From positions 6,656,151 to 6,720,150 of the forward strand of contig NC_135257.1 in NCBI RefSeq assembly GCF_964204865.1: a stretch of DNA of 64,000 bases. Reading direction: 5' to 3'. The stretch is from Styela clava. Its lineage: Eukaryota > Chordata > Ascidiacea > Stolidobranchia > Styelidae. The notes beneath the pieces are model-generated. The model was not told the DNA's origin and searched no databases. It was given only the letters and a program-made list of their open reading frames with translations. Shown here piece after piece: positions 1 through 51,966 of the stretch; position 1 is the first letter of the stretch; each line of letters opens with the position of its first letter. The translations under genes were made by a program, and so were the position numbers.

Positions 1-2819
1 GATACAGGCTTCTAACTTCGGATGGTCCGAAAAACGTGACGATTCTGGATACTGTTAGACAAAGTCGTCGTAAATTTCTCAAAAAATGGCTTGACGATAA
101 CAGATTTTGCAGTTGGTTAGTTTACACCCAACTCTCTGATGGGGGTGGTTTGTGTAAGATATGCATAGTCATGCAAGCACGTTTGAAGCATGGAACTCTC
201 AGGGACACTGCCTTTGTTACAAGACCATGCATTGACTACAAAAAATTTATGGAAAAGGCTGTAGCCCATCGAGACACAAATTACCACCGAGAATCAAATA
301 TAGCTGCGAAAAATTGTGTCAAAAGCATGGAAACTGGTCAAAATGTGCGTGCAAACATGGAGGCCCAATATGCTACGCAAACAAAAGAAAACAGACGAAT
401 AATGACTTCCATTGTCAAGACTGTCATGTTCTGTGCTTCGGGTAACATACCCTTGCGCGGACATTCCGGGGATAGTGGAAATTTGGTGAACCTTCTTCTA
501 TTTCGTATCGACGCAGGGGATGAAGATTTGAAAAGGCATTTCGCTCGAATGGCCGGAAACGCTAAGTATACAAGCCCGATGATACAAAATGAAATTCTCA
601 AGGTAGCAAGCAACATGATAGTGCAAGATATCGTTATGGAGGCTAATAAATCGTTTGTGTCCGTAATAGCCGACGAATCATGTGATATTTCTGGGAAAGA
701 ACAACTAAGCATCGTTTTGAGGTATGTGAAAGGTGGTGAAGTGTGCGAGCGCTTCACAGGATTAGTGGAAATGGATTCTGTTTCTGCCGAATCAATTTCT
801 TCAAATATTTTGACCCACCTCTCTGGTATAGGAGTGGATTTGCAAAAACTTGTGGGGCAAGGCTATGATGGTGCAACGACAATGGCAGGTCACGTCAGCG
901 GTGTGCAAAAACGCATTCGTGATAAATACCCGCGCGCAATATTTGTGCACTGCGCTTCTCATTGTTTGAATTTGGTAATAAATGACCAAAGTAAAGTTGC
1001 AATCATCAGAAGCACCTGTGATATCATTCGTGAGACTATTCGTTTTTTCAGGGAGAGCCCTAAAAGGCGCGCGGGTTTAGGAATTAACATCCCTTTGTTC
1101 TGCCCCACCAGATGGTCTGAGAAGTACAAGAGCATCCGAATCTTCAAATGCAACTTCAAACGAGTACTTGAGGCTCTTGATTCTTTGGCGAGAGATGCTA
1201 ACAGTGAGACGCGGGCGAAGGCTTTTTCTCTGAAATCTGCTCTAGAAAAGTCGTCGGTTATCTACGCCGTATGTTTGATTGGTCGATATTCGGCACTAAT
1301 GGAGCCACTAGCGCGCGCACTTCAGGCGGTCGGAGTCAGTGTGCCGTCAGTAAAGAACCTCACATCCTCTCTTCAGAGCGTTATCGCTGAAGAACGCAAT
1401 GACTCTGAAATCGCATTGAATATTTACAAAGAAGCTTGTGAAATAGCTGGCTTGAAGGAGTTGAAAATTACCCAGAGTAGTCGAAGTACAAGTTTATCGC
1501 GACAATGTCTGTGCTGATTCAGCATCCCAGTATTTTAAACGTTCCGTATATCTCCACTACGTCGACGGCTTGAGCTGCTCTATTCGGGAACGCTTCATTG
1601 ATAACCCATCATTTTTTTCATTGCTATCAATTCTTCCACCGAACAAACCAGTTCACGTGGATGAGGTAGAGCGTCTGTATTTATTGGATAACCTCCAGAA
1701 TGAAGTGAGACTGTGGAGAACTTCTTTAAGCTCCGACGTTAACGACGAATGTTTGGAGGGGCTTCTTCTGAGCGCTCGAGATTATCCAAGCGTGTACACC
1801 GCAATACAGATCGTTATGACGCTACCAGCAACCACCGTTGAGGCTGAGCGGTCTTTCTCCTGCATGAAACGGGTAAAGACATGGATGCGCTCATCAATGA
1901 CGTCCAATCGCCTTTCTGATTTGTGTGTGCTTCACTGTCACCGTGAAATGGTCACCGAGGAGAAAATTAATCGAGTTGTGTCGAGCATAGTTAGCGGGAA
2001 GCGGAGGATGGACTTTTAATCGGGGCGATGTATTTTACTTATTCAAATTGCGTTGTTAATATTTGTTGTTTCAAATAAAAAATTGTTTATTAATGGATTT
2101 TGTATTCACAAAAATCCAGCTGAGTAATTGAATCAGTTTGCTTGTTGACCAACTGTTGTTGTTTTGCGCTTGAAGAACGGGTGTTTTAAACCCAATATAA
2201 TTTCTAAAATTTTCAAATTTGGCCCCCCCCCCAAAATTTTGGGCTGGCTACGCCACTGCCCCTGCCCTAGGGGTTCCGCGTAAAGGTAAAATTGACTGCT
2301 GAGCCAGTAAAGTTGCAAAAAATGATTATTCTTTGTTTCCGTTTTTGAATGAATTTCTAAGTGCGCAACAGCAAGAAGGACTCTTAGATATCCGTAATGA
2401 TATTAATTCGGAGAAAACCTTCGAAAAACACGGGAAGGAATATTTTTTGGGTACAGCCATTGCAAATAAGCATTAAAACTTCTGTGTCAATTTCCCAATA
2501 CCTATTCGTGTAAATTAGCATTTTCTGCTTTAACAACTATTAAAAACAAAAAAGAAGTTTTCAAAGAGTGTAGACATGAGCATGAGAATTGCTTCGAGCG
2601 CCGTGGAGCCACGATTCAAGAAGATTGCAAAAGAAATGCAAAAACAACCTAGCCATTGGATTTCACGCTTGTTACCGGTTTTCTGTTTCGTTGTTTAAGT
2701 AGAAATATTTGAATTACAAATACTTCGTGTTACGAGTATTTCGTGTTTAATTCTTATTTTTGTTATTTGGGGTTCCATAAAAAGTGATATCAGGGGTTCC
2801 GCAATAACACAAAGGTTGA
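1..2819. repeat. Near-identical second copy of the right half of the hAT nest (copy A)
   Basis: Positions 1-2819 align with 7109-9927 over their whole length, and I could see only about seven differences: a few substitutions, one frameshift and a C-run length change. The copy contains the W transposase body, the W right terminal repeat (2244-2258), the W target duplication CCCCTGCC (2259-2266) and the right flank derived from element Y. Because the flank is shared, this is a duplication of the finished nest, not an independent W insertion. Similarity stops at 2819, nine bases short of the end of Y. The left end lies outside the window. A true segmental duplication and an assembly (haplotype) artefact are both possible. 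Confidence 0.93.
3..2019 (+). pseudogene. hAT transposase, copy A, 5'-truncated by the window and frameshifted
   Basis: This is the second copy of the ZMYM1-like hAT transposase at 6886-9126. The reading frame is open from the first bases of the window, equivalent to residue 76 of the intact copy. Near 1460-1475 a one-base insertion with two substitutions shifts the frame, which then stops at 1517. The C-terminal part continues in another frame to 2019 and keeps the hATC dimerisation region with its AERSFS motif. The TTF-type zinc finger and both catalytic Asp motifs are still readable. An AATAAA lies at 2074-2079. The product would lack the C-terminal catalytic Glu and the dimer domain, so this copy is probably inactive. 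Confidence 0.92.
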
Positions 2820-4764
2820 CAAAGTACAAAAATGTTAATCTGAATTTCTGAAATAAAGCAGAACGGAAGAATTTGATTGCTAATAGTGACATAACGATAA
2901 TTTACTAAATTTACCGTGCATAACAAATTAATATTATAAGAAAGATTATTTCACTTTTTATTTCACATTTTCAGTAATATTTTGTACCTCATACAGAATA
3001 CAGAAAAATGCACCCACTATAGCAGGTTTGGGTCTCAATTTGATAAAATCGGCTTGAAACCGGCCCTAGTTGCAAGTTTGTCTGAAAGGCAATTTTATTC
3101 CCAGGAGATTTTTGAAAAATGAGGTAACCAAAAAAGACACTTAATCCGATGACCATGAGAGTTAATCGTTCTCTTGTTGCAATTTATGTATGCTATGTTC
3201 CCGCTTATTAAGTTTTAGTTTCGCCCTTTGGTTTTTACTGTTCAAAATGTCGGGGTTTGACGGAAGCTTGCAGAATAACGTAGGGGTTCGACACGATCGC
3301 AAAGGTTAAGATAAGAGCCTCTGGGAGTCTTGCTACGAGCACGAGAGTCTTGCTACGCCACTGCTGCCGAGCCTAATAAAAACTAACGACTACACCAGCT
3401 ATTTCGTGGAAAGAGATTATGTTATTGGACACGAACTGGACATAACGATCGTTTTTGACATTGTGTTGTTTTGAACCCGAGGTTCGGTGGAGCTATTACA
3501 GGGGTTCGACGAAGGTCCTCTTCTAGATTTTTTTTTGTCCTAATCCCTATGAAATAAATGTTTATCATGAATTCATTATATTATCCAGCAGTTCAATTGT
3601 GTTAAAATTACTATAGTTTACCGCATATATCCAAACTTCAACAGTAAGACATTTCATAAAACAGTATATAACTCGGTATAGTTTCTCGCAGATATAATAT
3701 AAGTTTTTTTAGGCCCGTCAATGTTATACTTTGGATACATTGAAAACTCGATGTTTCATCACAGATGTCGCGGGTGTTCTGTATGATATCGTTTTCAGAT
3801 TCTTTCTGCTTATAGCTACAAAATATGTTAGGTTGTTATGTCAAACCTCTGGGGTTCAAGCCTAATATTTTGTTGAATGACACCTTATTCAAATCTACTA
3901 ATAAAATGTAGCTCAGTGTTAAAGATAAGTTGAAAATTGGAACTAAGTGTACATGAATGAATCTTATATCAGGGCGTGTAATAATTTCACTAAATGATAG
4001 AATTCACAGCAAAGAATAATAATATAGCAGTTTTGATTAAAAAATAGCATCACCCATCCTGGACGGCCTTAATAAACGGCCTGGACGGCGCTGAGTAAAA
4101 TTGTATTTCTATTCTGTAAAACAATGTTTGAAGTCCGGCAATGGCGGACTTTGGCCATCAAGACTTTCGAGGCATCAATTCATATCTTAACAAAGTTGCA
4201 ACTTTTGCTTTGCGTATGTTCCTTTTTCTAGTCCCACAACTTTGTTGTAGCACAACACTGATTATTTCGGCACAGTGTATTGATATCTAATGTTGTTTAT
4301 GAAAAAAATATGTCAACTAAAAATGTGCTCTGTCGGATGATTACACGCAGCTAACTGTTCTCTTGTTGCAATGCATGCTGTTATAACTAGTGGTGCACTC
4401 AGGCAGTAGGTGGTTGACACCCCTTTGTTATTGCATGTCCTTTAAATATAAACATAAAATCACAGACTATGCCCAACAAAAACTTAACAAATTTATACTG
4501 ACTGTTGCTTTTTGTTAAACCGCACAAAATCATAAAATCAAGTTGCGCCTCTGGTTTTACCTGTTTAAAAACGTTGGAATACAACGAAAGTCCGCAGACG
4601 ATTCGGCAGGTCCACAAACGTTAAGAACAACTGAGATATAGGAACATATTTTTATTAACGACGATATAATAACAACATGTGCTATTACTCTAAAACAGTG
4701 GTTTTCATATGGGATTCTGCCAGTACAATCCACGGGTTTCACAAGTTTTCATTCATATCCCAGA
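2820..4764. other. No gene; diverged hAT-end fossils
   Basis: I see no supportable coding region. The stretch contains degenerate hAT ends with GGGGTTCGACGA-like subterminal motifs near 3285-3312 and 3498-3525, and a CTACGCCACTG end near 3354-3364. Two diverged copies of one element end lie at about 3130-3312 and 4340-4625; they share GTTCTCTTGTTGCAAT and a downstream AAACGTTAAG-like end. The segment just after 2819 is AT-rich and unrelated to the flank of the other nest copy. Confidence 0.5.
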
Positions 4765-5111
4765 GTCTATAACAGTGCTGGTCAATCGTTTTTGGAATGG
4801 TAGCTTACCTACACCCTTTCTTAAAAACTCGTACACCCCGCCCATTCTACATTTTTAATACATAAGAAACTCAATTCTTGTGGTTGGATATATATATGTT
4901 TATGTCTCAAATTTCTGAAAACATTCTATGCTTCTGGAATGAGGCCGAACAAAATTAACAACTTCTATGATATCACTGGGAATAATATCCAAATCACTTT
5001 TCTGAGCCTTTTCATAACTTAGTTCAGTGCTCTTCAACAGGGGTTCCGCGGAACCCTAGGGTTCCGCAACACATGTAGTGGGGTTCTGTGAGTCTATAGG
5101 GTTCCCTAGGG

Positions 5112-6610
5112 CATAGGTTCTCAAAGTGCTCCGTACGGAGCCCCAGGGCTCCGCGAGAGAAACCCAGGGGCTCCGCGAGCTATTCGATTACTCTTCAAAA
5201 TACTGACTCAAAATTTTGTAACTGTTCAAAGAAGCATTAACAGCTTTGATAACATCTGACAACAATATAGCCTCGAAATATGGTAAAGGGCCGGAATTAA
5301 AAAATGACATTATTTATGAGCAGTAGCGCAGCCAGGATTCTTAAAAGGAAGGTGGTTCAAAATTGGAATCGGAAATTTCCGCGCAACATTTTTCGCGATT
5401 AAAAAAACGGATAACGAGATTTCTGTTGCGTAAAATATTCAATCCAAGACCGATGGAGCATTTGACGTGTCTCGTCGGTATAATGTAGTTGTGCTCATCG
5501 TTACTCACGTTTGATTCGAGATTACTATTAGGATTACTAAAATGAAAGAATACTATTCTAAAATAACATAAAATATGTGATAAACTGCCAACTATAAATA
5601 AATTGGTGTCGTATTTTTGCGATCTTGGGATTTGTCAAACTTGATTTGTTCTTTCGCACTTGAGATTATTTTTAAGCAAGATATCGCTGTTTAAAAAATC
5701 ACAATGTCTGGGGAAAATACGAACAATTGAAAATTATTTTATTGCATTCAGCTCCGTCGGTAGTTTCAGAATGAAAAAAGGTACATCGCGGATCGCGCGC
5801 ACCATTGATTGCGTGCGGCTGTGTCGGTAGTTTCAGAATGAAAAAAAAGGTAAATCGCGCGCACAATTGACTGTGTTTCGATTTCGCAGCTACTACGATG
5901 AAAACCTAACATAACACCAAATTTTGTGATTTACAATGTCTATAGAAGCGTTTTCTATCTGAGGTGAGTCTGCTGAAACCAAAGTGTGATCTTCCATTTT
6001 AAGTTTCAGTTTAAATATTTTAGAATGCCGCTTTCCAATCAAGAAATTTGAGTTGTGGATTTACCTTTTTACTGATTATTATTTTTAGCATTTCGTCGCC
6101 GATGACTATAATATGGTAACATGTTTTTCACATTGAACTCATAATTCTCCACGAGAACAAAAAAGCAATTAACGTCGTCATTGTGTAACAATACATGTAT
6201 ATGCCGAGGGAAATTTTTGATTTAGGTAGAATAAACAGCGGCGTAAAGATGTTTAAAACACGCCATGCTGACGGAAAAAATCGGCGATTGTAACAAAATG
6301 AAGTAGCGCACGTTACTAACGGCCTTTTAATTAAGTCTTCCAAAAATGTCAAAAAAGAAAAGATTCGATCCCTAATTTATTAATATGTTCGTCAAGTGTC
6401 AAATTTACAGCTTTAGTATAAAATTTAGATTTATTTATGACTTGTGTTAACCCTATTAAAAAAGGTTCAGCATTTAGAATAAATAAAGTACTCTTCACTT
6501 GCTCGGGAACAATAATCTGAAAGTAACAATTTTAAAATTAATTTTGGGGCTCCGCGAATAATATTCAACCTTTCAAGGGCTCCGCAACACCAAAGGTTTG
6601 AGAACCCCTG
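5112..6610. mobile_element. Element X: third-level non-autonomous hAT element inside Y
   Basis: The left end is CATAGGTTCTCAAAG and the right end is CTTTGGTGTTGCGG-type in inverted orientation (6579-6610, ending GAGAACCCCTG). The target duplication CCCTAGGG is exact at 5104-5111 and 9373-9380; the right copy is displaced because element W landed two bases beyond the end of X. Subterminal GGGCTCCGCGA repeats occur at both ends. X is 1499 bp and non-coding, and contains a V-family element from 5321. Confidence 0.87.
5321..6346. mobile_element. V-family non-autonomous element (copy 1)
   Basis: It begins with a hAT-like terminus CAGTAGCGCAGCCAGG at 5321. Its body matches the sequence at about 14352-14560 and 15770-16606 over several hundred bases, including CGCGCACAATTGACTGTG and TTCCAAAAAT near the 3' end. 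The right terminus seen in the other copy (ending 16606) is missing here. TTATTTATGA occurs on the left (5310-5319) and again at 6431-6440, which may be the remains of a target duplication. No coding region is present. Confidence 0.6.
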
Positions 6611-6612
6611 CC

Positions 6613-9366
6613 CATAGGCGTAGCCAGGGGGGGGGGGGGCAGAGGGGCCATGGCCCCTCCCCAAAAAAATTTTCAAGAATTCCATTCCTAATCCACCAGT
6701 TTTGTGGCATCTTGTCTCGTCACGCTTGCTGATTGTCATTGTTACGTCACAAAGACTTGACCGTTCGCTCTTATGAGCCGTATGGGAAAGACTGTTTCGC
6801 AAGCTTTCGGTCAGTTACTCGGTCTTGATTTGTTCTCGCCGGATTTTTATTCGAAACGCTTGGATTTTGATGACCAATTACTTCGATGGCTAAATTTAAA
6901 CAGGCGAAATTAGATAGTTTTTTCCAGCGAAATAAAGACTCGCTTCCCTCAAATACATCAATAAGCGCTTCTCAGGCTGTGGATGCACCGGTTACGTCAG
7001 TTACGTCTATCACTTCTATTCCCGAAGATGAACTAATGATCAACGAAGGAAAAACAAACGATCTTGGATTCATTCTTAAGAAACATACACAGCTTACCGA
7101 TGCGGAGAGATACAGGCTTCTAACTTCGGATGGTCCGAAAAACGTGACGATTCTGGATACTGTTAGACAAAGTCGTCGTAAATTTCTCAAAAAATGGCTT
7201 GACGATAACAGATTTTGCAGTTGGTTAGTTTACACCCAACTCTCTGATGGGGGTGGTTTGTGTAAGATATGCATAGTCATGCAAGCACGTTTGAAGCATG
7301 GAACTCTCAGGGACACTGCCTTTGTTACAAGACCATGCATTGACTACAAAAAATTTATGGAAAAGGCTGTAGCCCATCGAGACACAAATTACCACCGAGA
7401 ATCAAATATAGCTGCGAAAAATTGTGTCAAAAGCATGGAAACTGGTCAAAATGTGCGTGCAAACATGGAGGCCCAATATGCTACGCAAACAAAAGAAAAC
7501 AGACGAATAATGACTTCCATTGTCAAGACTGTCATGTTCTGTGCTTCGGGTAACATACCCTTGCGCGGACATTCCGGGGATAGTGGAAATTTGGTGAACC
7601 TTCTTCTATTTCGTATCGACGCAGGGGATGAAGATTTGAAAAGGCATTTCGCTCGAATGGCCGGAAACGCTAAGTATACAAGCCCGATGATACAAAATGA
7701 AATTCTCAAGGTAGCAAGCAACATGATAGTGCAAGATATCGTTATGGAGGCTAATAAATCGTTTGTGTCCGTAATAGCCGACGAATCATGTGATATTTCT
7801 GGGAAAGAACAACTAAGCATCGTTTTGAGGTATGTGAAAGGTGGTGAAGTGTGCGAGCGCTTCACAGGATTAGTGGAAATGGATTCTGTTTCTGCCGAAT
7901 CAATTTCTTCAAATATTTTGACCCACCTCTCTGGTATAGGAGTGGATTTGCAAAAACTTGTGGGGCAAGGCTATGATGGTGCAACGACAATGGCAGGTCA
8001 CGTCAGCGGTGTGCAAAAACGCATTCGTGATAAATACCCGCGCGCAATATTTGTGCACTGCGCTTCTCATTGTTTGAATTTGGTAATAAATGACCAAAGT
8101 AAAGTTGCAATCATCAGAAGCACCTGTGATATCATTCGTGAGACTATTCGTTTTTTCAGGGAGAGCCCTAAAAGGCGCGCGGGTTTAGGAATTAACATCC
8201 CTTTGTTCTGCCCCACCAGATGGTCTGAGAAGTACAAGAGCATCCGAATCTTCAAATGCAACTTCAAACGAGTACTTGAGGCTCTTGATTCTTTGGCGAG
8301 AGATGCTAACAGTGAGACGCGGGCGAAGGCTTTTTCTCTGAAATCTGCTCTAGAAAAGTCGTCGGTTATCTACGCCGTATGTTTGATTGGTCGATATTCG
8401 GCACTAATGGAGCCACTAGCGCGCGCACTTCAGGCGGTCGGAGTCAGTGTGCCGTCAGTAAAGAACCTCACATCCTCTCTTCAGAGCGTTATCGCTGAAG
8501 AACGCAATGACTCTGAAATCGCATTGAATATTTACAAAGAAGCTTGTGAAATAGCTGGCTTGAAAGAGTTGACAATACCCAGAGTAGTCGAAGTACAAGT
8601 TTATCGCGACAATGTCTGTGCTGATTCAGCATCCCAGTATTTTAAACGTTCCGTATATCTCCACTACGTCGACGGCTTGAGCTGCTCTATTCGGGAACGC
8701 TTCATTGACAACCCATCATTTTTTTCATTGCTATCAATTCTTCCACCGAACAAACCAGTTCACGTGGATGAGGTAGAGCGTCTGTATTTATTGGATAACC
8801 TCCAGAATGAAGTGAGACTGTGGAGAACTTCTTTAAGCTCCGACGTTAACGACGAATGTTTGGAGGGGCTTCTTCTGAGCGCTCGAGATTATCCAAGCGT
8901 GTACACCGCAATACAGATCGTTATGACGCTACCAGCAACCACCGTTGAGGCTGAGCGGTCTTTCTCCTGCATGAAACGGGTAAAGACATGGATGCGCTCA
9001 TCAATGACGTCCAATCGCCTTTCTGATTTGTGTGTGCTTCACTGTCACCGTGAAATGGTCACCGAGGAGAAAATTAATCGAGTTGTGTCGAGCATAGTTA
9101 GCGGGAAGCGGAGGATGGACTTTTAATCGGGGCGATGTATTTTACTTATTCAAATTGCGTTGTTAATATTTGTTGTTTCAAATAAAAAATTGTTTATTAA
9201 TGGATTTTGTATTCACAAAAATCCAGCTGAGTAATTGAATCAGTTTGCTTGTTGACCAACTGTTGTTGTTTTGCGCTTGAAGAACGGGTGTTTTAAACCC
9301 AATATAATTTCTAAAATTTTCAAATTTGGCCCCCCCCCCCCAAATTTTGGGCTGGCTACGCCACTG
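6613..9366 (+). mobile_element. Element W: apparently complete autonomous hAT (ZMYM1-like) transposon
   Basis: The 2754-bp element starts CATAGGCGTAGCCAG and ends CTGGCTACGCCACTG. The termini are inverted repeats differing at positions 3 and 4. They are flanked by an exact 8-bp target duplication CCCCTGCC (6605-6612 and 9367-9374), the length typical of the hAT superfamily. The duplicated bases include the last six bases of element X, so W landed across the X/Y junction and is the youngest layer. It carries one intact transposase gene, with AATAAA at 9181-9186 just after the stop. The intact ORF and exact TSD suggest recent activity. Confidence 0.95.
6886..9126 (+). CDS. hAT transposase, ZMYM1-like with TTF-type zinc finger, intact
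   Basis: This 746-residue DNA transposase catalyses excision and integration of element W. From the N-terminus it has: a basic stretch with the octapeptide QAKLDSFF at residues 6-13, which matches the PCNA-interacting (PIP) box consensus; a TTF-type zinc finger at about 98-172, with C111, C126, C129 and H164/H170 as likely ligands; an RNase H-like core with D299 (VIADES) and D364 (GQGYDG); the CxxH motif C392/H395; PTRW at 443-446; and the C-terminal hATC dimer region with the probable catalytic E690 (AERSFS). The ATG at 6886 is the first in a frame open to the TAA at 9126. It is intronless. The match to the hAT family is strong. Activity is inferred from intactness only. Confidence 0.95.
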   Translation: MAKFKQAKLDSFFQRNKDSLPSNTSISASQAVDAPVTSVTSITSIPEDELMINEGKTNDLGFILKKHTQLTDAERYRLLTSDGPKNVTILDTVRQSRRKFLKKWLDDNRFCSWLVYTQLSDGGGLCKICIVMQARLKHGTLRDTAFVTRPCIDYKKFMEKAVAHRDTNYHRESNIAAKNCVKSMETGQNVRANMEAQYATQTKENRRIMTSIVKTVMFCASGNIPLRGHSGDSGNLVNLLLFRIDAGDEDLKRHFARMAGNAKYTSPMIQNEILKVASNMIVQDIVMEANKSFVSVIADESCDISGKEQLSIVLRYVKGGEVCERFTGLVEMDSVSAESISSNILTHLSGIGVDLQKLVGQGYDGATTMAGHVSGVQKRIRDKYPRAIFVHCASHCLNLVINDQSKVAIIRSTCDIIRETIRFFRESPKRRAGLGINIPLFCPTRWSEKYKSIRIFKCNFKRVLEALDSLARDANSETRAKAFSLKSALEKSSVIYAVCLIGRYSALMEPLARALQAVGVSVPSVKNLTSSLQSVIAEERNDSEIALNIYKEACEIAGLKELTIPRVVEVQVYRDNVCADSASQYFKRSVYLHYVDGLSCSIRERFIDNPSFFSLLSILPPNKPVHVDEVERLYLLDNLQNEVRLWRTSLSSDVNDECLEGLLLSARDYPSVYTAIQIVMTLPATTVEAERSFSCMKRVKTWMRSSMTSNRLSDLCVLHCHREMVTEEKINRVVSSIVSGKRRMDF

Positions 9367-9452
9367 CCCCTGCCCTAGGGGTTCCGCGTAAAGGTAAAAT
9401 TGACTGCTGAGCCAGTAAAGTTGCAAAAAATGATTATTCTTTGTTTCCGTTT

Positions 9453-9585
9453 TTGAATGAATTTCTAAGTGCGCAACAGCAAGAAGGACTCTTAGATATC
9501 CGTAATGATATTAATTCGGAGAAAACCTTCGAAAAACATGGGAAGGAATATTTTTTGGGTACAGCCATTGCAAATAAGCATTAAA
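9453..9585 (+). pseudogene. hAT transposase C-terminal fragment inside element Y
   Basis: A short open stretch reads NEFLSAQQQEGLLDIRND near its start and stops at about 9585. It resembles the C-terminal region of ZBED5/FAM200-type hAT transposases, where a similar LIDIRND motif precedes the dimer domain. It is a remnant and belongs to a lineage different from element W. The same remnant is present in the duplicated block at about 2346-2478. Confidence 0.5.
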
Positions 9586-10359
9586 ACTTCTGTGTCAATT
9601 TCCCAATACCTATTCGTGTAAATTAGCATTTTCTGCTTTAACAACTATTAAAAACAAAAAAGAAGTTTTCAAAGAGTGTAGACATGAGCATGAGAATTGC
9701 TTCGAGCGCCGTGGAGCCACGATTCAAGAAGATTGCAAAAGAAATGCAAAAACAACCTAGCCATTGGATTTCACGCTTGTTACCGGTTTTCTGTTTCGTT
9801 GTTTAAGTAGAAATATTTGAATTACAAATACTTCGTGTTACGAGTATTTCGTGTTTAATTCTTATTTTTGTTATTTGGGGTTCCATAAAAAGTGATATCA
9901 GGGGTTCCGCAATAACACAAAGGTTGAAGAGCACTGACTTAGTTGTTTTCACGACAAGATTCTCTCGATGTATGCAACGTTAGCAAGGTATCAATCACAC
10001 TGCTATAAAAAAGTATTATGACGTCACAACTATGACAAGCAGATGACAGAAATCGGAAAATTATTGGCATACGTTAGCCTTAAGTTTACATGTAGGTCAA
10101 ACCGTTAGATATCACATTCACATACCATTGTCAATTGTAACCAATTTAATTAACATATCATGTGTTAGTGCTTAGTGTGTACCCTACAACATTCGGTACG
10201 GTACACCCTATCGATGTGGTACACCCTTCGAACTTCTTGGTACACCCTGGCGTGTACTATACACCCGGTTGACGAGCCTGGCCCTGGTCTATAATCAATG
10301 TACGTTGATTGTTTAAATATATTTAAATACATATTAAGTTAATACTACTATGTTAAATT

Positions 10360-10760
10360 TGTCACACTTTAAAGGTGCAAAATTGCTGTATGGCAAGCTC
10401 ATCGACTCTTTAACAGAGAATTTGGAATTAATTCGGCTCTGAATGTTTTCCTCTGAATGTTTTCCTTGTACATCAACTACAGATCCAGTCTCCATGAATT
10501 TACGATGAATTACATAAATTATTCGTCGTGAAAGAGCCGAATTAATTCCAAATTGCCAAACAGCAATTTTGCACCTCATTTCTTGGGTTAATCTCCTTGT
10601 CATTCTGTGGGTTGTTGAAAAATGCAAACAATACCTAAATTTTACTACTCATTCATACTATGTTTCCTGAAGAAATGATCGCTCTATGATGAGTACTTGA
10701 AAAGCAAATAAAAATTAATAGTGTATACTTACTTTTGAGACACTCTGTATATTTATAGTT
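10360..10760 (-). mobile_element. Fossil DNA transposon with inverted transposase fragment
   Basis: On the minus strand 10460-10610 reads a helix-turn-helix-like segment (IIYVIHRKFMETGSVVD) typical of DUF4817/mariner-type transposase N-termini. Part of it, GGTGCAAAATTGCTG to AATTCGGCTCT, recurs in inverted orientation at 10375-10438, giving an imperfect foldback with 10526-10577. A TTTTGAGACACTCTGTATA end near 10734-10751 is typical of such elements. There are no intact termini or long ORF. Confidence 0.5.
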
Positions 10761-13406: not shown

Positions 13407-16400
13407 TTATATCAGAAACAAGTAATAAGTCAATAAATGAGCGACAAAATTTAATGGTGATTGGTTGAAATGGAAGGCACCATTTTCAATCAAGTTTAAT
13501 GTATTTTCAAATGAGTGCATGTTGCAGAGTTCATTTTCACAACAAGTTGTGCATACAGCTTTTGTTCTTCCTGACCCAGTATAAAAACACTTTTCCTCTT
13601 GATATGCTGTTGAGCACCTACTGCTATCACAACCACGCCATACTTCTGTGATACCATTATGATCATAGTAAACTGCCGACCAACAGGCACCATTGGTGCA
13701 ATTCCCAACAGACATATCCATAGTCAAAGCATCAGAGCATTTCCCTGTTTTTGTATCCTTGCAGTGGTAGCACAATAAGGGGTCAATTTTCTCTGGCGGT
13801 TGTGATGGGGGAATATATGGTGTCACATTGACAGTTGTATTAGAGTCTCCCGGACATCCACAGTATAGTTTGAATTCCATGGAATCACACGGATGACATG
13901 GGACAACTTGGTTACATTTCACTCCCAATTGTGGATCGCAAATATACTCAGGATCGAAGTTGTGAGAACTGCCTAAAATATGTTGAAAAAAAATCATCCG
14001 TTAAATAAAAAAATTTTACATTATTATTGTACGCTGTTTGGTGGATGCAAAAATGTTCGAAGTCTTATAAATGTCATTAAAATTAACCAACCTCCTTGTT
14101 TCATTTCTTTGTGTATTTCGAAAATGGACTTTTTGTCAGACGTTCTCCTACATGATACAGCTATAGGGTTTTGACAAATGTCTTGCGACTGTAGAAGTGC
14201 TGTCAAATGTTTCAATAAAGAAATCTGCTCTGCGAAAGTAGAAAAGTTGATGTCTGTACTGCTTTGTATCTGTAGCCATGAAGTCCAACCAGGATTACAC
14301 ACTACGAATTATAACAATCAACATTAATTCAATATATTAATTATTTCCTATAGTACGCGAAGGCGCGCAGCGGGAAGGATTTTGAAAAGGGTAGTTTCAC
14401 AATATCGGAAATTTCTATTCCCTTCTGAAACAATCGCCGCGATTACGCGCTCATTAAAAAAGCCGACTTTTTAAGCGTATACCGACTTTTCTGTCGCCTA
14501 AAATATTCAATTCATGACAGCTACGAGAATCTAAAATTTCCTTCTAAAAAGACTGCCCATCAAAAAAGAAAGACTTTCCATCTCTTTCTCTACCTACATG
14601 GACAATTCCACGACGTAGAAGATTGGAGACGGCAAACCCACCTCATTTGAATATACAACGTGTGAACAACAATAGTGTCACACAACCTGCAATGACATCA
14701 ACAAAGATTTCGGAATTACACAAACAAAATGATCAAAACGACGTACAACCTTCATCGACTGCTCAAAACACACCGGATATACCAGCCACGATCGACCAAG
14801 ATGTCTCACTACCTGAAATTACTATGGGAAATACCTCGAACGGCACCACAACTAACAGCATGCTTGACAATAGGATACCGGAAATTGATTTGGTCTCGGA
14901 TTTACACGAGTTTTCCTCTTCCACCGGTTCTAATGACCTAAAGGAGATTAGTAACTGGTCGGAGTGCGAAGATCCAGGAGACGTCTTGAGCCCTCTGTCG
15001 ACTCCACCTAATCAACTACAACAAAAACCAACCCGGCAGTCATCGAGGTTGAAGCAGACTTCAACGATAGGCAACACACCTTTCCACCCTACATCAAAAG
15101 GAAATGCCTACGTGAAGGTAATGCTACGCAACATCGACCCTTGTGACTTATCAACAACTTCCGTTTTCGACAGCACACCGGACGAAATATCCTCAGCCCC
15201 AGCCAACCTTGAATACAATAAATCAAATCCAAAGACTCCGGACTCAACTCAACCAAAATTGGACAATAAAAGATACCGTGACGACACCACATCATCCGAT
15301 TCCTCTTTCTCAACTTCCTTGGAAGTTAAGTTAGTTGGAAAAAAGAAAAAATAGCAGTGAGTAAAAATTCGGACCCACAAAATCAAATTCTTACTCTGGG
15401 ACATTTATTTCGGCCTTCAAAAATCACTTGTATTAAAACGCCCAGTTGATGGCATTAAACTCAACAAAATTCGATTATACCATCTCACAAATAGCGGATG
15501 TGATGAAAGGAAGTCTACCTCTTTATGTGGTACATAAAATGGTGATCTCTATGGCAGAGAGATTTGATTCATAAAACTTCCGTCGGCATAATCTGGGTAT
15601 GAAGGCATTTGGGCTGGATTCCAGACTTGTCGTCCTGATCCGTAAAAAAAAAAAAAAAAAAAAAAAAATCTCAACATTTGTAATCAAATTCCGCAGAGTT
15701 AAAATATATATTATAGGCCCTATAATATATAGGGTATATCAGTGAATCAAAAACACATATTTATCGCCTCGAAATCACCGCGGAACGACTTTTCTACGGA
15801 CAATATTGATGTTTCTGTTTGCACAAAGGACCGTAATCAATCCAAGGCCGATACGTGCATATTTAAAATGTCTTGCTTTATTAATTTATTTGTCTTCCTT
15901 TAAACCTGCGGTTGCGTCGATGAATAAAAGCATCATTGTTCTACAATACCACAGCAGTCCGCGGACATAAAAATGTGTTGTAAATTTCCCGGTTATATTC
16001 AGTTTTGATTCCTATTTTTGCCATTTTGCGAATTCGGCGGATTCTAACTTTGTGTAATATTAACACTAAAAATTTTGAGGGCAATTTAAAGTAATGAATG
16101 AAAATGTAAATCCCGCGCACAATTGACTGTGTTTCGATTTCAGTGACGATATGATTCCCAACGACGACCAAGCGTAATGTGTGCCGTATGCACACGAAAT
16201 TTTGCGATTAACAATGCATAAATTAGCGTTTTTAATCTGTCGCGTGCAACAGAACTTAAATTGTTTACGGTTTTATTTTAGTATTTTATATTGCCACTTT
16301 TCAATCAAAAACTTTTCGTCGGGGATTCACTTCTTTATTTGTCTTTAGCATCTCGCCGCCGACGAATGTATAATAACTCTCATCGAATTCACTATCCTGT

Positions 16401-19400
16401 GCGAGAAAAAAATAAATAAATCATCATCGTCGCTGTGGCACAAATTTGTGGGAAATTTGTGATTTAGGGAGATTAAACACGAACGTAAAAGTGTTTACGG
16501 CCTAAATAACACATCACGGTGACAAAAACAATCGGCGATATTAGCAAAATGCAATATGCGTTATTAGGGACTTTTTCAGTTTTCCAAAAATTTGGCTGCG
16601 CCAGTGTAATACTGTATGTCAACTGTGTCCATGTCAATACTGAAAATTATACAATGTTCAAGTTGTGACTAGGGCTGGGCATTTTCGAATACCTTATGAT
16701 TTCAGAATCGAATCAAATATATTTTTCGAATCGAATCTTAACTACTTGTGAGATATATACCTGTATGCTACTTCTTTGTGATTGTAATTGGTCCTGTCAA
16801 CAAATAAATTACTGAAAAAATAGAATCCAGATTGCTGAGCGATCACATAGCATAAGAAACATGTTTTATCAATACCTCCTTACAGAGAATAGTCATATGT
16901 CTGAATTGCGTTGAAAAAGTATGGCTTCAATAGAATAAAAATGAGGAGTTCACCTCAATCATTGGCCGAAACGAAAAGAAAACAAATGAGGCGATTTGAA
17001 ATTTTGCTCTAAACCGATTCGTATAATTTACTCGAAATGCCCAGCTAGTTGTGACATGACTTTCACAGCTCCATAGTTAAGCTATGTCCACTTGTCAGGT
17101 AGGAAAGTAGAATCCTTGACAGAGGATGTTTTGTAAAATTGGTCATGAGCATATAGATTTTAGATGAATATAAAATTTATATGAAATTTCCAGCAGTCGC
17201 ACATCCTGTCCATATCAAAATTGCTTACCTAACCTCACCGATGTTTGTTCTCCTTCGTCACCTGAAATTGAATGCTTCGATCTCAACTTTGTTTTTGACT
17301 CTGATTTTGTGGAAGCTTCAGTGTGATATTTTGAACTGGGGAACTCTGTAATCATTTCCTCATGGCTTTTTAACTCTGATTTTGTGGAAGCTTCAGTGTG
17401 AAATTTTGAACTGGGGAACTCTGTAATCATTTCCTCATGGTTTTTTAACTCTGATTTTGTGGAAGCTTCAGTGTGATATTTTGAACTGGGGAACTCTGTA
17501 ATCGTTTCCTCATGGTTTTTTGACTCTGATTTTGTGGAAGCTTCAGTGTGATATTTTGAACTGGGAAACTCTGTAATCATTTCCTCGTGGTTTTTTGACT
17601 CTGATTTTGTGGAAGCTTCAGTGTGATATTTTAAACTGGGGAACTCTGTAATCATTTCCTCGTGGTTTTTTGACTCTGATTTTGTGGAAGCTTCAGAGTG
17701 ATATTTTGAACTGGGGAACTCTGTAATCGTTTGTTCGTGGTTTTTTGACTCTGATTTTGTGGAAGCTTCAGTGTGATATTTTGAACTGGGGAACTCTGTA
17801 ATCATTTCCTCTTGGTTTTTTAACTCTGATTTTGTGGAAGCTTCAGAGTGATATTTTGAACTGGGGAACTCTGTAATCATTTCCTCATGGTTTTTAGACT
17901 CTGACTTTGTGGAAGCTTCAGTGTGATATTTTAATCTGGTGAACTCTGTAATCATATACTCATTGTCATTAGCCATTGTGCTTGTTCTTTGAGTGCCATT
18001 CGAGAATGATGTAGTCAGTTCAAGTTTAGTAAATACATTGCTATGAATAGTATTGATGATGATGTCTCCTGATCCACTGCTTTCCATGTCAGTAGCAACA
18101 TCATTTTGTTGTGTAAAAGTGTTATACGCTGCTGTGAATGGTATTATTTCTTCCATGTTAAAAGACGAACTTTCGTTACATATGCAATAGAATCTTACTT
18201 CATAGTCAAAGCATTTGCCAGGCTGAGGTCGATTATAGCACATAAAACCATCAAACAAGTCACATTCAAGTCCAATTTGTCCTGTCTGTTGCCATGGAAT
18301 CCCATTTGAAGTGCGGCATTCTATTGCTACAGTTTTTGACTCAGAACACAGCTTGCCGCTACCTCCCCATTCTTCGTCATATTTTTGCCTAATTTTATAA
18401 ATACTTTCAAAATCTCCACCGGAGAGTGTGACACCGGCGATAGTGATACCTGTCGGTTTAGCAACGTTGAACCACTCGGTCCAGCTATCCACACAAAATG
18501 GTTTGGGGGCACTGGTATCTGAATCACTAGAGGTTGTAGATTCTGTACTATCCAACTGAACAAATCTGTATAAAACTGAAAAGTAACCTGAAAAAAAGAA
18601 ATTTGGAGTTGAAATAGGTTGCAGGAAAATATTATAATTGTCATTTCATCAACAAAAAGACGTATGAACGCATTGCCTTATTTTATTTAGTCAATGCTGA
18701 AATAAATGCCTTTATATTAAAGGACAAGGGTCTTCCATCATTTATACCTTAACATATGAAGTGTAGCCTTTCATCCATGTCATTTTCGAATATTTATTTT
18801 GATGTCTGCGTAATGCTATGCCACAGAAAATTGAATGCAAACATACCTGTGTCCTCCGGACAGTCCACACAGGCATAGTTGAGTTCGCAGTCATAGGAAC
18901 AACAAGAATTTGTTTTTCTTCTTACATCAGCATAGCCTTCACTATAATCGTATATAGCCAGTGGATTTTTTCTATCACTGATAAATTCAACTATTACATC
19001 AGGTCCCGAGCTCAATATTTTAAATGAGGGAGGCCTGGTGCCACAAACAGGACTTCTAATTGGTTGTTTGTTGGGACCAATACCATTATAAAACACCAAT
19101 TTATCGATGCATTCATGTGTAGAAACTATTGATGATTTTGAAGGAACACTTTCAATTTTTATTTCAATTACTTCAAACTCAATTCGAAACATATTTTCTG
19201 GTGACTGACAAGTTTCATCTTTTTCTTGAGTAAAAATCCAGAAACAAGTTGTCCCTGGATTGTAATCAGAATATGGATATCCTGGTGATGTAATTTCACC
19301 TTCTGTTATGTTTGAATGCTTGCAAGAACTTGGTAATATGACTCGATATACACATATTTCTTCTTTATAGTTCATATGAAATATAGGAGGGCTCGCTTTT

Positions 19401-22400
19401 GATACTGTAGCCCTCAAGATTACTCTCAAACTGTTGGAGTGAACCATCATATCAAAGGAACTCGATGGAAGAGATGTAATTCTTGAATCAAGAATAACTT
19501 TATTATGTTCCCAGATTTGTAGATAATCATTTTGATTTGTTAGATTGTATGCGTCAAACAGCAACAACAAGTACGCAGGGCTGAGTTCAATTTTCCAGTC
19601 ACAGAATATGGTTGTGTTTTCATATTCTATATCGAATGCATCAGGTAATCCAAAATATCCATTTTGCGAAGTTATGTTCGCTTGAGATGATGGCATAACA
19701 CCTCGCGCACATGCTTGTGGAAGATGTTTGATCTGTTGAAAATCTTTCCAACTGTAAAGAGAATAGATTATTGCTGCATAGTCATTATGTTTCCACTTTA
19801 TTACCCAATGTTATTCGAAACTATTTCATCTCAAAATGAAATGTATAAGATATATCGGACCTCCTGAAATATGTGCACCAAGATCGCGCACAACCTGAAC
19901 TCAGGTTGTGTACCAGGTTAGGGTTAAGGTTATGCGACATCTTGGTGCGCATACTTCAGGAGTACCGATATATCTTTACAAAACACGAATACATCCAAGC
20001 TATGAGTTGCTGATCGCTACAAACCATCAACTAATGCCATACACACAACATAAGGCATTATGCAAATATGTCTGCCTTACCGATATTGGCAATCATTTTC
20101 ATCATCCATCAATGGACAATCAGGAATATCGTCACATCGTCTTGTAACTGGAATACAGTCTCCAGTAACACACTGATACATGTCATCATATGGACATTTT
20201 GGAAACTTGCATCTTGGTATCTGATCGCAACTTTCAAAGGGAACCTGGGTTACAATAATTTTATTTTTATAATTCAATCTGGAATCTAGAACAGATCATC
20301 AGAACTAACCTAAAATAAAATCATCAATATGGTAAGACACTATTTCAAAACTTATTGTCAACTCAAAGCTCAAGTTACCGAATCATTAAGCGTGAAACAT
20401 CTAGGTGCTTGAAATGGTTTTCTCCAATCTTCCAAAGGGTATCTGCAATAATTTTCATCCAATCCTGCATTCGGAAGCTTCTCAGGAAGTTGATCATGTT
20501 GCCATGGACTTTGTTTTTGCCATTGCTGACATTCCTGAATATGATTCATTATTGAGAGAATTGGATGTACCTAATAATATATATCAATTTATACATGTTT
20601 TATGTACAGGGTGATCAGACCAAGTGTAGACAAATGTTTATTAAAATATCTACAAGATAAAATGTAAAAGAGAAAAAGAAAAAAAAGAAAGAAAATAGCA
20701 TTATAAAGATAAATAATTTAATCCATTGTTATTTTTTGATATATCCTCCCTTTGCCTTCAATACACGCCTCGATCTGATTGGAAATTTACTGCACGAGGC
20801 ACGAAAGATTTCTTCTGCAATTTTGTCCCAACAAGTCATCAATGTATGCCTTAGAGCAGTTGTTCTCAATCTGAGTTACACGCACCACTAGTGAGTGATA
20901 CACGGGAGCTTTTCAAGTGGTACGAAAGCAGCTTTAAATTATTGCAACAAATAACTTTTGTATTCGTTAAACGCCTTTTATAGCGTTACCAGTTCTTGTC
21001 TTTTATCGCTCTCGCCCATTACTGTCCAACCAAAAGGAAACTCATTTCGCGCGTTACGTTACAATACATTTTATTACAACCACTAAATTATCCGAAACCT
21101 TGGACGAATACACTTTGATCGGTGCTAGACGCTATCATGAACGCTCCTTATTTGCCGATTCATTAATGCAGACGCATTGTGACATAAAACGCAAAACGAC
21201 GAAAACGTGTCTGTCATTTATGGTGGACAATAACGGGCGAGGGCGATCTCTAAAGATAAGAGTCAGTAGCGCCATAAACGCTGTTCAGCAAATACAAAAG
21301 TTAATTGTTGCAATAATTCAAAGCTGCTTGCGTACCATTAGGGGTGCGCGTACCTCAGGTTGGGAATAACTGCTTTAAAGAATAGATTGATGACTTGTTG
21401 GGACAAAATTCCAGAAGAAACCATGCGTGCCTGGTGCAGTCAAGTTCCAGACAAATCGAGGCTTGTAGTGAACGCAAAGGAAAGATATATCGAAAAATAA
21501 CAATGGATTAGATTATTTATCTTTATAAGGCTATTTTCTGCAAAATAATTTTTTTCTTACATTTATATTGTAGATATTTTAATAAACATTTGTCTACACT
21601 TGGTCTGATCACCCTGTACCATAAAATACCTTAAATTACCATCCATTTACAACCATACATCGGTCTTATTTGCAACCCCATGAAAAGAGAGATGGCAACA
21701 AAGTCTGCAAATACAAACACACAATGTTTAAAGTACTCACCAAACCAGACCCTGTTGTTGAGGCATTTCCTCTGTATGAGAAACCTGTTATGTAGCAATC
21801 TTCCTGAAATGACTTCATCAATTCATGCATATGAGGAGGAGGGATACCTTTGTATGCTAAAACAAGTTGCCCATTGTTGTCACAATCAGATTTGAAAATT
21901 ATTGTCATAGTGTTATTAGTGGATGTTATATACAAAGGGATATGTGATGGAGTTCGACAGTGCCAACCAATGAGAGGATGAGATGCATCACGACCATCAT
22001 AAACAGTCAGCATATCTGCAAGGCACCCAGCTACACTTGGCAAAGCAAATTTGATGAAAAATAATCTGACAACCCGTCCAATTGAGGCTTGAATTGTCCA
22101 AATACATGATGTACTACTAGAATATTTTTCTGGGAAATTCAGATGAGTGAATACTGTCAGATTATCTCCTATGAAATGACCTCCACATCTCTTCACCATA
22201 TTTTCTGAAAAACATGTCAGATTATATTCGCGAGCTATAGCATGTCTCATTTAAAATATGAAGTTCAGTTGTAGCTATACACATCCTCGCTATAGCAATA
22301 ATATAATACTTTGCATCTTTGAAAATGTCACTATAATTGCTTACAAACAGTTTAATCTTTTTATAGATTTGATTAGAAATAATCGTGTCTTATTAAATAG

Positions 22401-25400: not shown

Positions 25401-28400
25401 TTGGGAAAACCCACAAATTGTTTCAATTGAGAGTGTTATTTTGGTCAATATGCAATGATCCAGAGGAATTAAATATTATTTGCGTATATAGATGGATCTG
25501 TAATTGACAACACGTTTTTTGATACCTTTCAAAGTCACCAATCTCTAGCAGAAACTCAAGACTATAGAAATTATATTTGTAACTGCTCAAAAATATAGTT
25601 GTATGTGTGTAAAATTGGATATTGATCTCACCAATAGGAGTAGCTTCAACTGTTGTATATGAAGTTGTTTCCTCAGCTAGAGTAGGAAGTCCTAATAAAT
25701 AAATGGTGCATAAGGCGACAAGTTATCCATACCGGTACTTGGAGTTGTTGTCATACTAGTGTCAATATTCTGTGTCATACTTGATTGTATTTGGTTTCAT
25801 TGATTTTCATAGTTAATTTGGTGTGGTGATTAGAGACATAGTGATACAGTTGAATGACAAGAATGTAATAGTATGAAATACATTAAATTAAGAACCTTTT
25901 TCCCCCACTGCGATGTTTTTATGAGAACACAACAAATATATTATGGATATAGCTTCAAAATAATGGATTGATTTCAATATGCGATGAGCTGAAGGAATTA
26001 AATATTATTTGTGTATATAGATGGATCTGTAATTGACAACATGTTTTCTGATACCTCTCAAAGTCACCAATCTCTAGCAGAAACTCAAGACTATAGAAAT
26101 TATATTTGTTACTGCTCAAAAACATAGTTGTATGTGTGTAAACTTGGATATTAATCTCACCAATAGTAGTAGCTTCAATTGTTGTATATGAAGTTGTTTC
26201 CTCAGCTAGAATAGGAAGTCATAATAAATAAATGGTGCATAAGGCGACAAGTTATGCATACCGGTACCGGTACTTGAAATTGTTGTCATACTAGTGTCAA
26301 TATTCTGAGTCATACTTGATTGTACTTGGTTTCATTGATTTTCATAGTTAATTTGGTGTGGTGATTAGAGACATAGTGATACAGTCTAATGACAAGAATG
26401 TAATAGTGTGAAATACATTCAATTAAGAACCTTTTTCCCTCACTGCAATGTTTTTATGAAAACACAACAAATATATTATGGATATAGCTTCAAAATAATG
26501 GATTGATTTCAAATAATATTATTACCATATTCTACGGACCATGAGGCACACCGTTTTATACATAAGGTGTATCGGACTATCAAGCGCAACCCCTACTGGT
26601 TTTGCGTATAGGCAATGAAGCATAAAACACTACTAGATCCATATATTATGCGCGCCGGCTTAAAAGGCATTCAATCGATTTTTGAAAAAAAAAAAATTTT
26701 AAGCGCGCCTCATGATCCATAAAACACCATAATTGTAGCGTAATATAATCAAATGTTGATAAAATGTTCAAATTTATTTTATTTTTGTAGCAGTGCATTT
26801 GTGCAAAACCAGAATTTTGTTTTACCAGGGGCACAAGCGATTGTTTCTTTGTTATCATTTCTTTTAGATACAACATAATTATCAACGCAAACACATGTGT
26901 AACTCTCTGCATTGTCCTTGCAAACAGTAAATTCCTCACAGGCATGAGTGTTCTCCTCGCATTCGTCAAATCCTAAATATATATATGCTTACTGAAAGAA
27001 CAAGAGGAAAATAAGGATGTGCGACAATGTCCAGGATTATTCCTATTAACAAAGATTTTGTGGATTGATTTCGTATTAAGGACACAGTAGTAACCAATGA
27101 CAGAAATGTTTTTGTGTGCTCTACTAGCCCTGTTTACTAGCTCACCAGTGCTCTAAATTTGTACATATGTATATTTCCTATTTGTTAGATATCCCGATAA
27201 CGTTATATACCAGGTTGACCTGATTACACATGAACATTCCCAACCTCACAATGCTGTAGGATAGATAGATAAGTTTTCAAATATTGATATTGGTGTGTTA
27301 AGGTAGAAATTAAAAACTGATGTCAAAAATTACCTTCAAGTTTCACCTTTAAAATCTGTATTGATCCAAGATCCATTTCAAAAACAGTTTTGACACTATC
27401 TCGACTCAGAATTGCTCCATCTGTGGTGTTCATCCCAACAACACCATTTGCTTTGTATTTTCCACCATTTTTTTTGTCGAACACTTGATTCCAAAATTGA
27501 ACAACACATATACTACTGAATGCTTTTCTCAACTCACTTTCCAACTGAAAAAGTATGACTTTTGACCAAATTTGCTCAAAATCTAGCATGTCCTTACATT
27601 CCAATAAATGGGGGTATAATTTTTATTGATATCATAGCAACTCAAAACCACAGATTTGATTGATTTTTTTTTTTTTCAGTTAATATAAATCTCCACACTA
27701 AAAAAATGTTTCTAAGAAAATTGTCTTAAATGCAGAGAAAATACAAACAAAATGTATTTTGGTTTTTCATATATTAAATTTTGACAAACTATATTCATAG
27801 TAGTAGTAATTTTTTTTTTTTGGGAGTAATATCATATTTTGGTAGAATTCAAATCACATCATATATTTGTCATTGTGAAATGTTTAGTGCATTACAATAT
27901 GCAGATATTCTTGACAGGAATAGTTGTCCTATAACCACTGCAAATATCAATAATATTTGACATGTCCATTTTTTTTTCAAGTGGTATGTGTTGTTATCAA
28001 AAATCCGATTGTGAAATAAATATGTAGTATATATAAAAAAAATCTTACACTAGAATTGTATTCATCATAACTGCTAGACTTCATTTCAACTTCATATTCA
28101 TACACAGTTTGTTTTGATGAACATTCTAAATGATGAACATAATAATTGTTTTGTACTGTTTTTAAAAAACAATAGGTAAGGAAATATTATTGTTTGTAAA
28201 GGAAAAAATGTTTAAAATTTAGGGTGGAGTCCAACTGATAATAATTTGTTTAAACCTGAACCATTTGAGAAGTATCATATGAATATACAATTATTTTCTT
28301 ATCATAATAGCACAAAGTGTATAAAGTGTATATGTGCAGTTTGCATTTTCAATAATGCATTTTTACATAAGCATAGCATAGCAAATTAAAGGCATCACCT

Positions 28401-49091: not shown

Positions 49092-50529
49092 TGAAACTAT
49101 TTTTGTTTCTCTATTTTGTCATTTCATCACGCACTTCGCTCAAATTTTATACAGTCAGATTGATACATTTAAAATTTTAATGCCTGCTGTTTATTTGCTT
49201 TTAAAGCCCAATATTGTGTCGCGTCGATGTTGTAGTCTAGTCACCCTAGTGCTTTTCTGTTTTATGCCATAAATCAACTGAACACACGAAATTCTGTGAG
49301 TAGATCAAGTGAAACACGTTTTCATGGCAAGGGGAGGCGTTCATTCTTGTTATATCAAGTTCAGTTAAACCGAACAAATTGAATACTCGCGTAAAAACTG
49401 TTAATAATCGAAACAGGAGTGAAGCATATAAACTACCAGTGTTATGAAGTAGGCTATGGCACTTTCATAAACAAAAGACCAAGGACAAATTAGACTGTTA
49501 GAGTCTGTTAGACGAAGGCATAAAGTTTAAAAAATAGTTCAGTGCGTAATAAACTGTTACAGTTGTTTTTAATGTTTGAAAGCTGTATTTGCAGCAGTAC
49601 GACTTAACCGGAATACCGGTAGGTGCTCGCCACTAATACAGTCTAGTGATACTGTAATAATTAGTTCAGAAGATCCCGTGTGCTGCAAAGCCACACAAAT
49701 AGGTTCGAAGTTCACGATGCCAACGAAGAGACTTTTTTTAAATAGTGTAAAATCCACGCTTGAAGCAGATAAAATAAGAGCGACAAAATACAACGCTTAC
49801 TCTTAGGACAGCAAAGTAGAAAGAGGTTGACACTGCGAATCCGCAGCATAGTTCATATATGCAGTGGTGGTTGGAGTCGAGTAACTAAATCTAACTGTCG
49901 GGCGAATTAGGGCTCCACACACCAATGCATATGCAATAACTAGACACGAAATATAAATAAAATACAAAACAATAAAAAAGTAGGACAATTCCAGTCCCGC
50001 CACATATTTGTTTAAATAAAATTAACAGGTGAGATTTTTCATACATACCGGTAGAAACGTCTTAGGTATGAGACCAATCATGAAGAATGGTGACTCGCCT
50101 CTGGGGGGACTAGTAGTACAGCAATACTCACGCGCATGGGATTGCAATTTACAGAAATACGACCCGGCATGTTCATTTTCAACGCCGTCCACTTAGTTAA
50201 CTGCTGTGAAATAGATAAAAGGCAAAAAAGAACCTATATTACGGACTACGCACATGGCCACTCACACTGCATCTTATGCGATAACAAAACAAGAGAGCTA
50301 CGCACAAATATATGGACACGTCATATCAGAGCGAATCAGTCCTTACCGGTACCTTTGACGCTACCGGTACCCTCAAAAAAGTTTTGAATTTCCAGTAGCA
50401 AGAATTTTGCAGAATCAAAACGTACAGCCAGTCATGACACTGACTAAAATCCGTGTTCCCATGGATAAAAAATAATACAGCAAAATTTTAGATGAAATAT
50501 CAAATTCCATAGAATTCACGCAAAATTTT
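49092..50529. other. 3' flank of the ODF3-like gene, no further gene
   Basis: It contains the 3' UTR and then AT-rich DNA with the first ACCGGT-type motifs (49614, 50048, 50343). Short open frames at 49576-49806 (plus) and 49803-50003 (minus, one hydrophobic segment) lack plausible starts, splice sites or family motifs. Confidence 0.4.
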
Positions 50530-51286
50530 GAAATAAATAAAAGTAATAGCCTTCTAGCGAAAAAATTAATCTTTAACCACTGAAAATTTCAAAGCAATTG
50601 GTCCAGTATTCGAAGAGAAAAGCGACTTTTCAAAAACGTGTCAAAGAACAAGAACAACAACACAAGAGAGCAATGCTCAAATATATGGACACGCAGAACA
50701 ACTCCCCAAAAATCATATGCGGTGACCAACGACTAACATACCGGCGGTGACTTACCAGTACCTGTATCGGGGTACCGTGACGGTACAGGGACTGTCATAT
50801 ATATTTTAGGTCCTGTGACAATTGAAACATCAGTTGTAATATCTCGTGATATGAGTCAGGATCAGGTACCGAACCACAGTCAAACATTTCACATAAAAAC
50901 GTTACTAAATAACATGCGTCAACTTAACACCACCCGAATCGGGGTACAATTTTTGGTACAGTGACTGTCATAGTCGTTTAAGGCTGATGGACAATTCGAC
51001 TACACGGACAACTCACCAGGCCTAGGGTGGTGTAGCCAGTCTGCGGACAATTTCATTCAAACCGCTATAAAACAAAAACCAATATATCTAACCCGTTAAT
51101 TTTTTCACCGTGGGTGCATTGGCGGCATTTATTCTACACGCTAAACCTCGTATTAACTTTCTACGACAAAGGGTTAAAGCTATACAAATCCCCAAAGTAC
51201 GGCACTCGAAAGACGTATTTGCGACCACGGATTTCAAGCCTTGATCATCGTTTCTGCTGCGTCGAGACTATCGTATACGCAGCCAT

Positions 51287-51966
51287 ACAGCAATCAAACA
51301 GACAAAACACGGTGGTCGCAAATTGGTTGACAAAGATATTATCGACGTATTAGGATAGGATTTACATATTTATCCCGGGGGAGAGAAGTAGCCTAACTAT
51401 CAAATATGGTTAACACAACTCTACCCACCTGCCAAGTTTCATCTTTTTATCTCTTATATTTGTACGGATTTTCAAGCTTTTGACAGCTACGAGTTAGTTC
51501 AGTGTCACCGCGCTGTGTTACGGTACCAGAACTACTCTATCTTTAGAAGTTCCTGTCTTGTGACAGCGTGAAAACATTGGGCTTCTAATTGCATTTCTGA
51601 CCGTCATATATTTCAAGAACACGGTTATTTCGAACAAAACTCGTTAAATTATAAACAAAGCACCACATCACAGCAATCAAACAGACGAAAACACGGTGGT
51701 CGCAAATTGGTTGACAAAGATATTATCGACGTATCGGAAATGCACACCCCCTATTCCCCCTCCTTCAAATGTAGAAACGCGAAACCTTCAAATATGGTTA
51801 AAAGAAACACAACTCTACCCACCTGCCAAGTTTCATCTTTTTATTTCCCATGTTTGTATGGATTTTCAAGCTTTTGACAGCTACGAGTTAGTTCAGTGTC
51901 ACCGCGCTGTGTTACGGTACCAGAACTTCTCTATCTTTAGAAGGTCCTGTCTTGTGACAGCGTGAA
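51287..51966. repeat. Tandem duplication of about 390 bp
   Basis: 51287-51572 and 51670-51966 are copies beginning ACAGCAATCAAACAGAC and ending TCTTGTGACAGCGTGAA, with small indels between them. Confidence 0.88.

Follow-up and report, generated by a model that had tools for sequence, protein, structure and literature searches.

Nested transposable elements serve the relative dating of insertions (PMC6911290, PMC5657132), and the dating studies, as set out in the portions of PMC6911290 at hand, have in common that the order of insertion is read from interruption. Several described systems of DNA transposons provide further points of comparison. BuT2, a hAT element of the Tip group, carries a DUF4371 domain (PMC3942097), the target duplications of the Buster family have the form nnnTAnnn (PMC3517528), and coral genomes hold tandem arrays of miniature inverted-repeat transposable elements (MITEs), the highly similar members of which have been attributed to replication slippage (PMC2872659; all three accounts in the sections at hand). 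Here we describe a nest of hAT-type elements (from the outside inwards Z, Y, X and W) within a 64,000-nucleotide stretch of the Styela clava genome (assembly GCF_964204865.1, contig NC_135257.1, positions 6,656,151 to 6,720,150 of the forward strand), which is called the window below. Unlike the dating cases in the available parts of PMC6911290, this nest is hAT-type in each of its four layers, and its innermost insertion has left the host X whole. The locus is very probably the product of four cut-and-paste insertions in succession (Z, Y, X, W), followed by a 7.1-kb tandem duplication of nearly the entire nest. All family searches were run in the window's own genome (376.6 Mb).

An earlier note, made from the letters of the window alone, had claimed a nest of four hAT-type elements with base-exact boundaries, and this is confirmed by the presence of hAT-type ends and exact 8-bp duplications for Z (4773-10286), Y (5025-9936), X (5112-6610) and W (6613-9366), all on the forward strand. 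Read from the left, the Z target duplication GTCTATAA (4765-4772, an exact match to 10287-10294) is followed by the left arm of Z (4773-5024), of which a second, identical copy lies upstream of the window. The arm ends in the Y target duplication ACTTAGTT (5017-5024) and gives way to the left part of Y (5025-5111), which includes the X target duplication CCCTAGGG (5104-5111). Then come the complete, uninterrupted X of 1,499 bp, which has no long open frame, and W, a 2,754-bp element with its own open transposase frame of 746 residues (6886-9126). The W target duplication CCCCTGCC (6605-6612) consists of the final 6 bases of X and 2 bases of the X duplication. To the right of W lie the second copies of the W duplication (9367-9374) and of the X duplication (9373-9380), the right part of Y (9381-9936), the second Y duplication (9937-9944), the right arm of Z (9945-10286), which occurs at 100% identity just once among the genome matches listed, and the second Z duplication (10287-10294). 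X is unbroken, with a gap of 2 bp between X and W, because the six bases copied by the W insertion rebuild the X end. The nest offers clean material, exact to the base, for teaching and for the testing of repeat-annotation software, and the X/W pair carries a warning: an innermost insertion may spare its host element, and hence be mistaken for a neighbour.

The family ends agree with these boundaries for W, X and Y, as judged from other genomic copies, and the support for Z is weaker. For W, 40 loci were scored among 122 candidates and 28 other loci were fetched, 18 of which have the W ends and a perfect duplication of their own. For X, 40 of 2,407 first-look candidates were scored and 22 other loci were read, and 15 of these again have the family ends and a perfect duplication of their own. 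The other Y copies read (four of four) are full length, with their own duplications and without X.

The insertion order Z, Y, X, W, as proposed in the earlier note, stands. X was in Y before W arrived, since the W duplication starts with CCCCTG, the end found in other copies of X, and since the other Y copies are free of X; the flanking duplications place Y around X and Z around Y. The associated proposal that W landed across the terminus of X and duplicated six of its bases is borne out by the same CCCCTG, and the empty X site, suggested as something to look for, was found in all four other Y copies read, where it is single, unoccupied and altered by 1-2 bases. The X-W distance of just 2 bp could also be explained if W had been inside Y ahead of X, or if X and W had arrived joined. 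This is highly improbable given that CCCCTGCC stands on both sides of W with the family end of X as its first six bases, that other X copies read have the CCCCTG end without W, and that X, Y and Z, compared by blastn with the 28 other W loci and their flanks, gave no match at 1e-6. We therefore keep to the successive order: Z would have entered the host DNA first and then received Y, X would have inserted at a TA-centred 8-mer within the subterminal repeats of Y, and W would have landed over the right terminus of X, every insertion leaving an exact 8-bp duplication.

The uninterrupted state of X and the tandem duplication are two features that had been overlooked. The duplication is head to tail, 7,108 bp in length, with units that are ~0.2% divergent. 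The second unit (2820-9927, forward strand) comprises flank, the left arm of Z, the entire W and X, and Y minus its last 9 bp; the right part of the first unit (1-2819, forward strand) opens the window, the unit itself starting ~4.29 kb before it. At the junction (2819-2823) the cut falls 9 bp short of the right terminus of Y and a 3-base filler, CAA, has been added. The duplication was predicted from window positions 1-2819 and then found upstream, in the form of 4,286 bases with 99.77% identity at the same offset. The unit is present twice, head to tail, with both outer flanks kept, as in a tandem segmental duplication. One could imagine the second copy to be the result of Y transposing as a composite with X and W inside, for the copied stretch stops near the right end of Y. 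Yet the final 9 bp of Y are missing from the copy, no duplication stands at that end, and the repeat, offset by 7,108 bp throughout, also spans ~1.9 kb of flank and the Z left arm; the composite is already refuted by the upstream sequence and we consider its chance negligible. The tandem duplication is the youngest event, later than every insertion, and probably came about through end joining, in which a break located 9 bp short of the Y terminus was linked to a point left of Z.

The two units also offer a built-in clock, in which a transposase gene has been doubled and one copy frameshifted. Apart from the junction filler, the units differ by 15 substitutions over ~7,105 positions. Within W (2,746 comparable columns), 11 private substitutions are common to both units, 3 are confined to unit 1 and 0 to unit 2, where the 11 shared changes represent an upper bound because the source copy may have carried some of them. 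If they postdate the insertion of W, the duplication would be several times younger than that insertion.

The nearest other copies of the families are 1.07% away in the case of W, 1.1% in the case of X (98.9% identity) and 5% in the case of Y. In outline, the family ages suggested by the sequences agree with the order of insertion, Z appearing oldest and Y next, with X and W both young. The view that the perfect duplications mark the whole series as young finds no support: according to calculation, two 8-bp copies remain identical with a probability of ~0.67 after 2.5% change per copy, so that a perfect 8-bp duplication is weak evidence of youth, and the families differ in age. Nor is there support for the view that such a nest is a rarity, as nested insertions and insertions that flank a terminus are commonly reported, to judge from the portions of PMC6911290 and PMC4168063 at hand. 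As a nest, this locus is ordinary, and such nests are common.

A number of observations weigh against the reconstruction of four insertions and a duplication. The divergences of X and W from their nearest copies are too alike to show, on their own, that X preceded W. In a simple end test, 10 of the 28 other W loci and 7 of the 22 other X loci were without a clean duplication. For Z there are its duplication, its ends and only partial, diverged relatives, which are 69-94% alike across only part of the arm. A Pfam search with 8 short frames taken from X, Y and Z found nothing, leaving these three layers without a transposase match. Finally, the evidence for the tandem duplication is that of the assembly, and a unit difference of ~0.2% is possible for two alleles, such that the duplication could represent an assembly error in which two haplotypes of one locus were set in series. 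We regard this as quite unlikely, since there are zero N in the window and in the 20 kb upstream, and since the join is defined at the base level, with a 3-base filler unlike the outer flanks, which we judge not to be normal for a haplotype misjoin. A genuine duplication remains the preferred reading.

W is the layer that has a transposase frame of its own. Its frame matches DUF4371 (8.9e-27), the hAT dimerisation region (PF05699, 3.5e-6) and, over residues 310-469, chains of the Hermes transposase (1.6e-4). The dimerisation region, an RNase H-like core, 8-bp duplications and short inverted ends, all characteristic of the hAT superfamily, are present, with termini that are unequal (left CATAGGCG, right CAGTGGCG). 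W was presumably mobilised by a DUF4371-type transposase like the one that it encodes. The likeness to BuT2, as described in the available parts of PMC3942097, extends to DUF4371, the hAT dimerisation region, the 8-bp duplications and the size (2.75 kb versus 2,775 bp), whereas BuT2 has five exons and W one 746-residue frame; the likeness is one of domain and size, and does not establish membership of the Tip group. The 746-residue frame is open in the unit 2 copy and at 3 of the 28 other loci (L010, L011, L015), while the frame counts 745 residues at L016 and 746 residues without ATG at L012. In unit 1 it is broken by a frameshift that involves three changes in 11 bases (window 1457-1468), changes that are absent from all 27 other copies of W that could be read at this place.

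X has different target preferences. Counting only loci with clean duplications, all 21 of the X duplications have TA as their fourth and fifth bases (two of these, at L045 and L047, being one event), as against 1 of 19 duplications of W, which served as the control family. X therewith conforms to the nnnTAnnn pattern of the Buster family. With Buster MITEs, e.g. Mar of Drosophila, as they appear in the sections of PMC3517528 at hand, it also has in common a CAG-type end and the lack of coding sequence; it differs in its length of 1.5 kb and in a narrower target (nnCTAGnn preferred). Its transposase source has not been identified, no search for an autonomous partner having been made. The X termini read CATAGG on the left and, in other X copies, CCCCTG on the right. 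Y, which measures 643 bp when restored, has a perfect terminal inverted repeat of 14 bp and has the subterminal repeats GGG(C/T)TCCGC in common with X. The five Y duplications (the nest and the four copies read) and the Z duplication are TA-centred too, and 8-bp duplications and CAG-type ends are found in X, Y and Z (in the case of Z from the nest copy only). The TA-centred targets suggest mobilisation of Z, Y and X, as non-autonomous elements, in trans by one or more Buster-type transposases. Separately, the interior of X (5837-6347) has a distant 66% match at window 16093-16591, perhaps an old relative.

The part of the analysis most worthy of follow-up, and more unusual than the nest itself, is that, elsewhere in the genome, X repeatedly sits in the target duplications of other X copies. 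Several scored X copies adjoin another X, although the scored list is ranked and may favour doublets. A genome scan for exact X ends at most 30 bp apart gave 8 head-to-tail, 5 left-to-left and 1 right-to-right junctions, with 0 hits for the reversed control pattern in every scan; an equivalent scan yielded no Y-Y junctions. The spacer is exactly 8 bp in 13 of the 14 X-X junctions, all 13 being TA-centred, and in the remaining junction its 18 bp consist of two TA-centred 8-mers and 2 bases. Among the stacks with both outer ends read, L045 (with L047), L046 and L051 each carry a single 8-mer in triplicate, and L048, L049 and L050 do so partly. At L044 (the C19:16478439 region), a different hAT-type element of 368 bp and X have a common target, CTCTAGAA, which is found three times on the reverse strand (1117, 1493, 3000).

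The stacks might instead be products of recombination or tandem duplication. Two of the 8 head-to-tail cases are indeed a single event copied with its flanks (L045 on C5 and L047 on C6 are one X-X stack with identical outer flanks, and represent either a copied segment of larger size or a repeat family, so far unrecognised, that carries the stack), and at L050 the middle 8-mer is unlike the outer two. However, the identity between stacked partners is just ~89-94% (7 pairs compared, with lenient gaps), too low for recent tandem copies; junctions are seen in both orientations, all but one have an 8-bp spacer, and at L044 X adjoins a hAT-type element of another kind, the common 8-mer again being present in triplicate. 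This makes such an origin unlikely, and we prefer insertion into existing target duplications. The X stacks resemble the coral MITE arrays in that full-size elements stand side by side, but the diverged partners and one common 8-bp target point to separate insertions (compare the available sections of PMC2872659). For Galileo, of the P superfamily, termini with flanking elements have been reported, but exact sharing of one target is not described in the portions of PMC4168063 at hand.

Given the target preference and the 727 exact right ends, one expects 0.20 head-to-tail junctions, as against 8 seen (P 6e-11) or at least 5 distinct ones (P 2e-6). Counting all 2,407 candidates raises the expectation to 2.2, in which case 5 events are not unusual (P 0.07) and 8 events are (P 0.002). 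The underlying target matrix was built from 15 single insertions and ignores chromatin, and the formula assumes the number of exact left ends to equal that of right ends. It is possible, but on balance doubtful, that the target duplications of resident hAT elements attract X-type elements beyond the 8-mer preference of the latter. The transposase on the resident ends would then perhaps mark the adjoining 8 bp, and every insertion would create new landing sites, giving rise to self-growing stacks. If upheld in an unbiased count, the stacking bears on site choice by hAT transposases and on element clustering.

Some further observations concern X. At C17:5508541-5510098 the ends indicate three successive X copies, with two different TA-centred 8-mers, 2 bp apart, at the final junction. 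L052 (C14) and L069 (C9) have at least 18 identical bases to the right of X, TGCTAGAAGATGGTGAGT, which implies that X sits in the same target within two copies of some repeat or segment.

The window contains other repeats. Just right of Z (10373-10576) lie two nested inverted repeats with arms of 24 and 22 bp, and a 14-bp tandem pair is found at 10437-10464. Positions 17292-17972 hold 75-bp tandem repeats within a long minus-strand open frame, 20598-21028 and 21224-21626 form an inverted pair (78% alike), 25445-26512 a tandem pair of ~0.5 kb (93.5% alike), and 50447-54336 a cluster of short repeats that are 88-94% alike.
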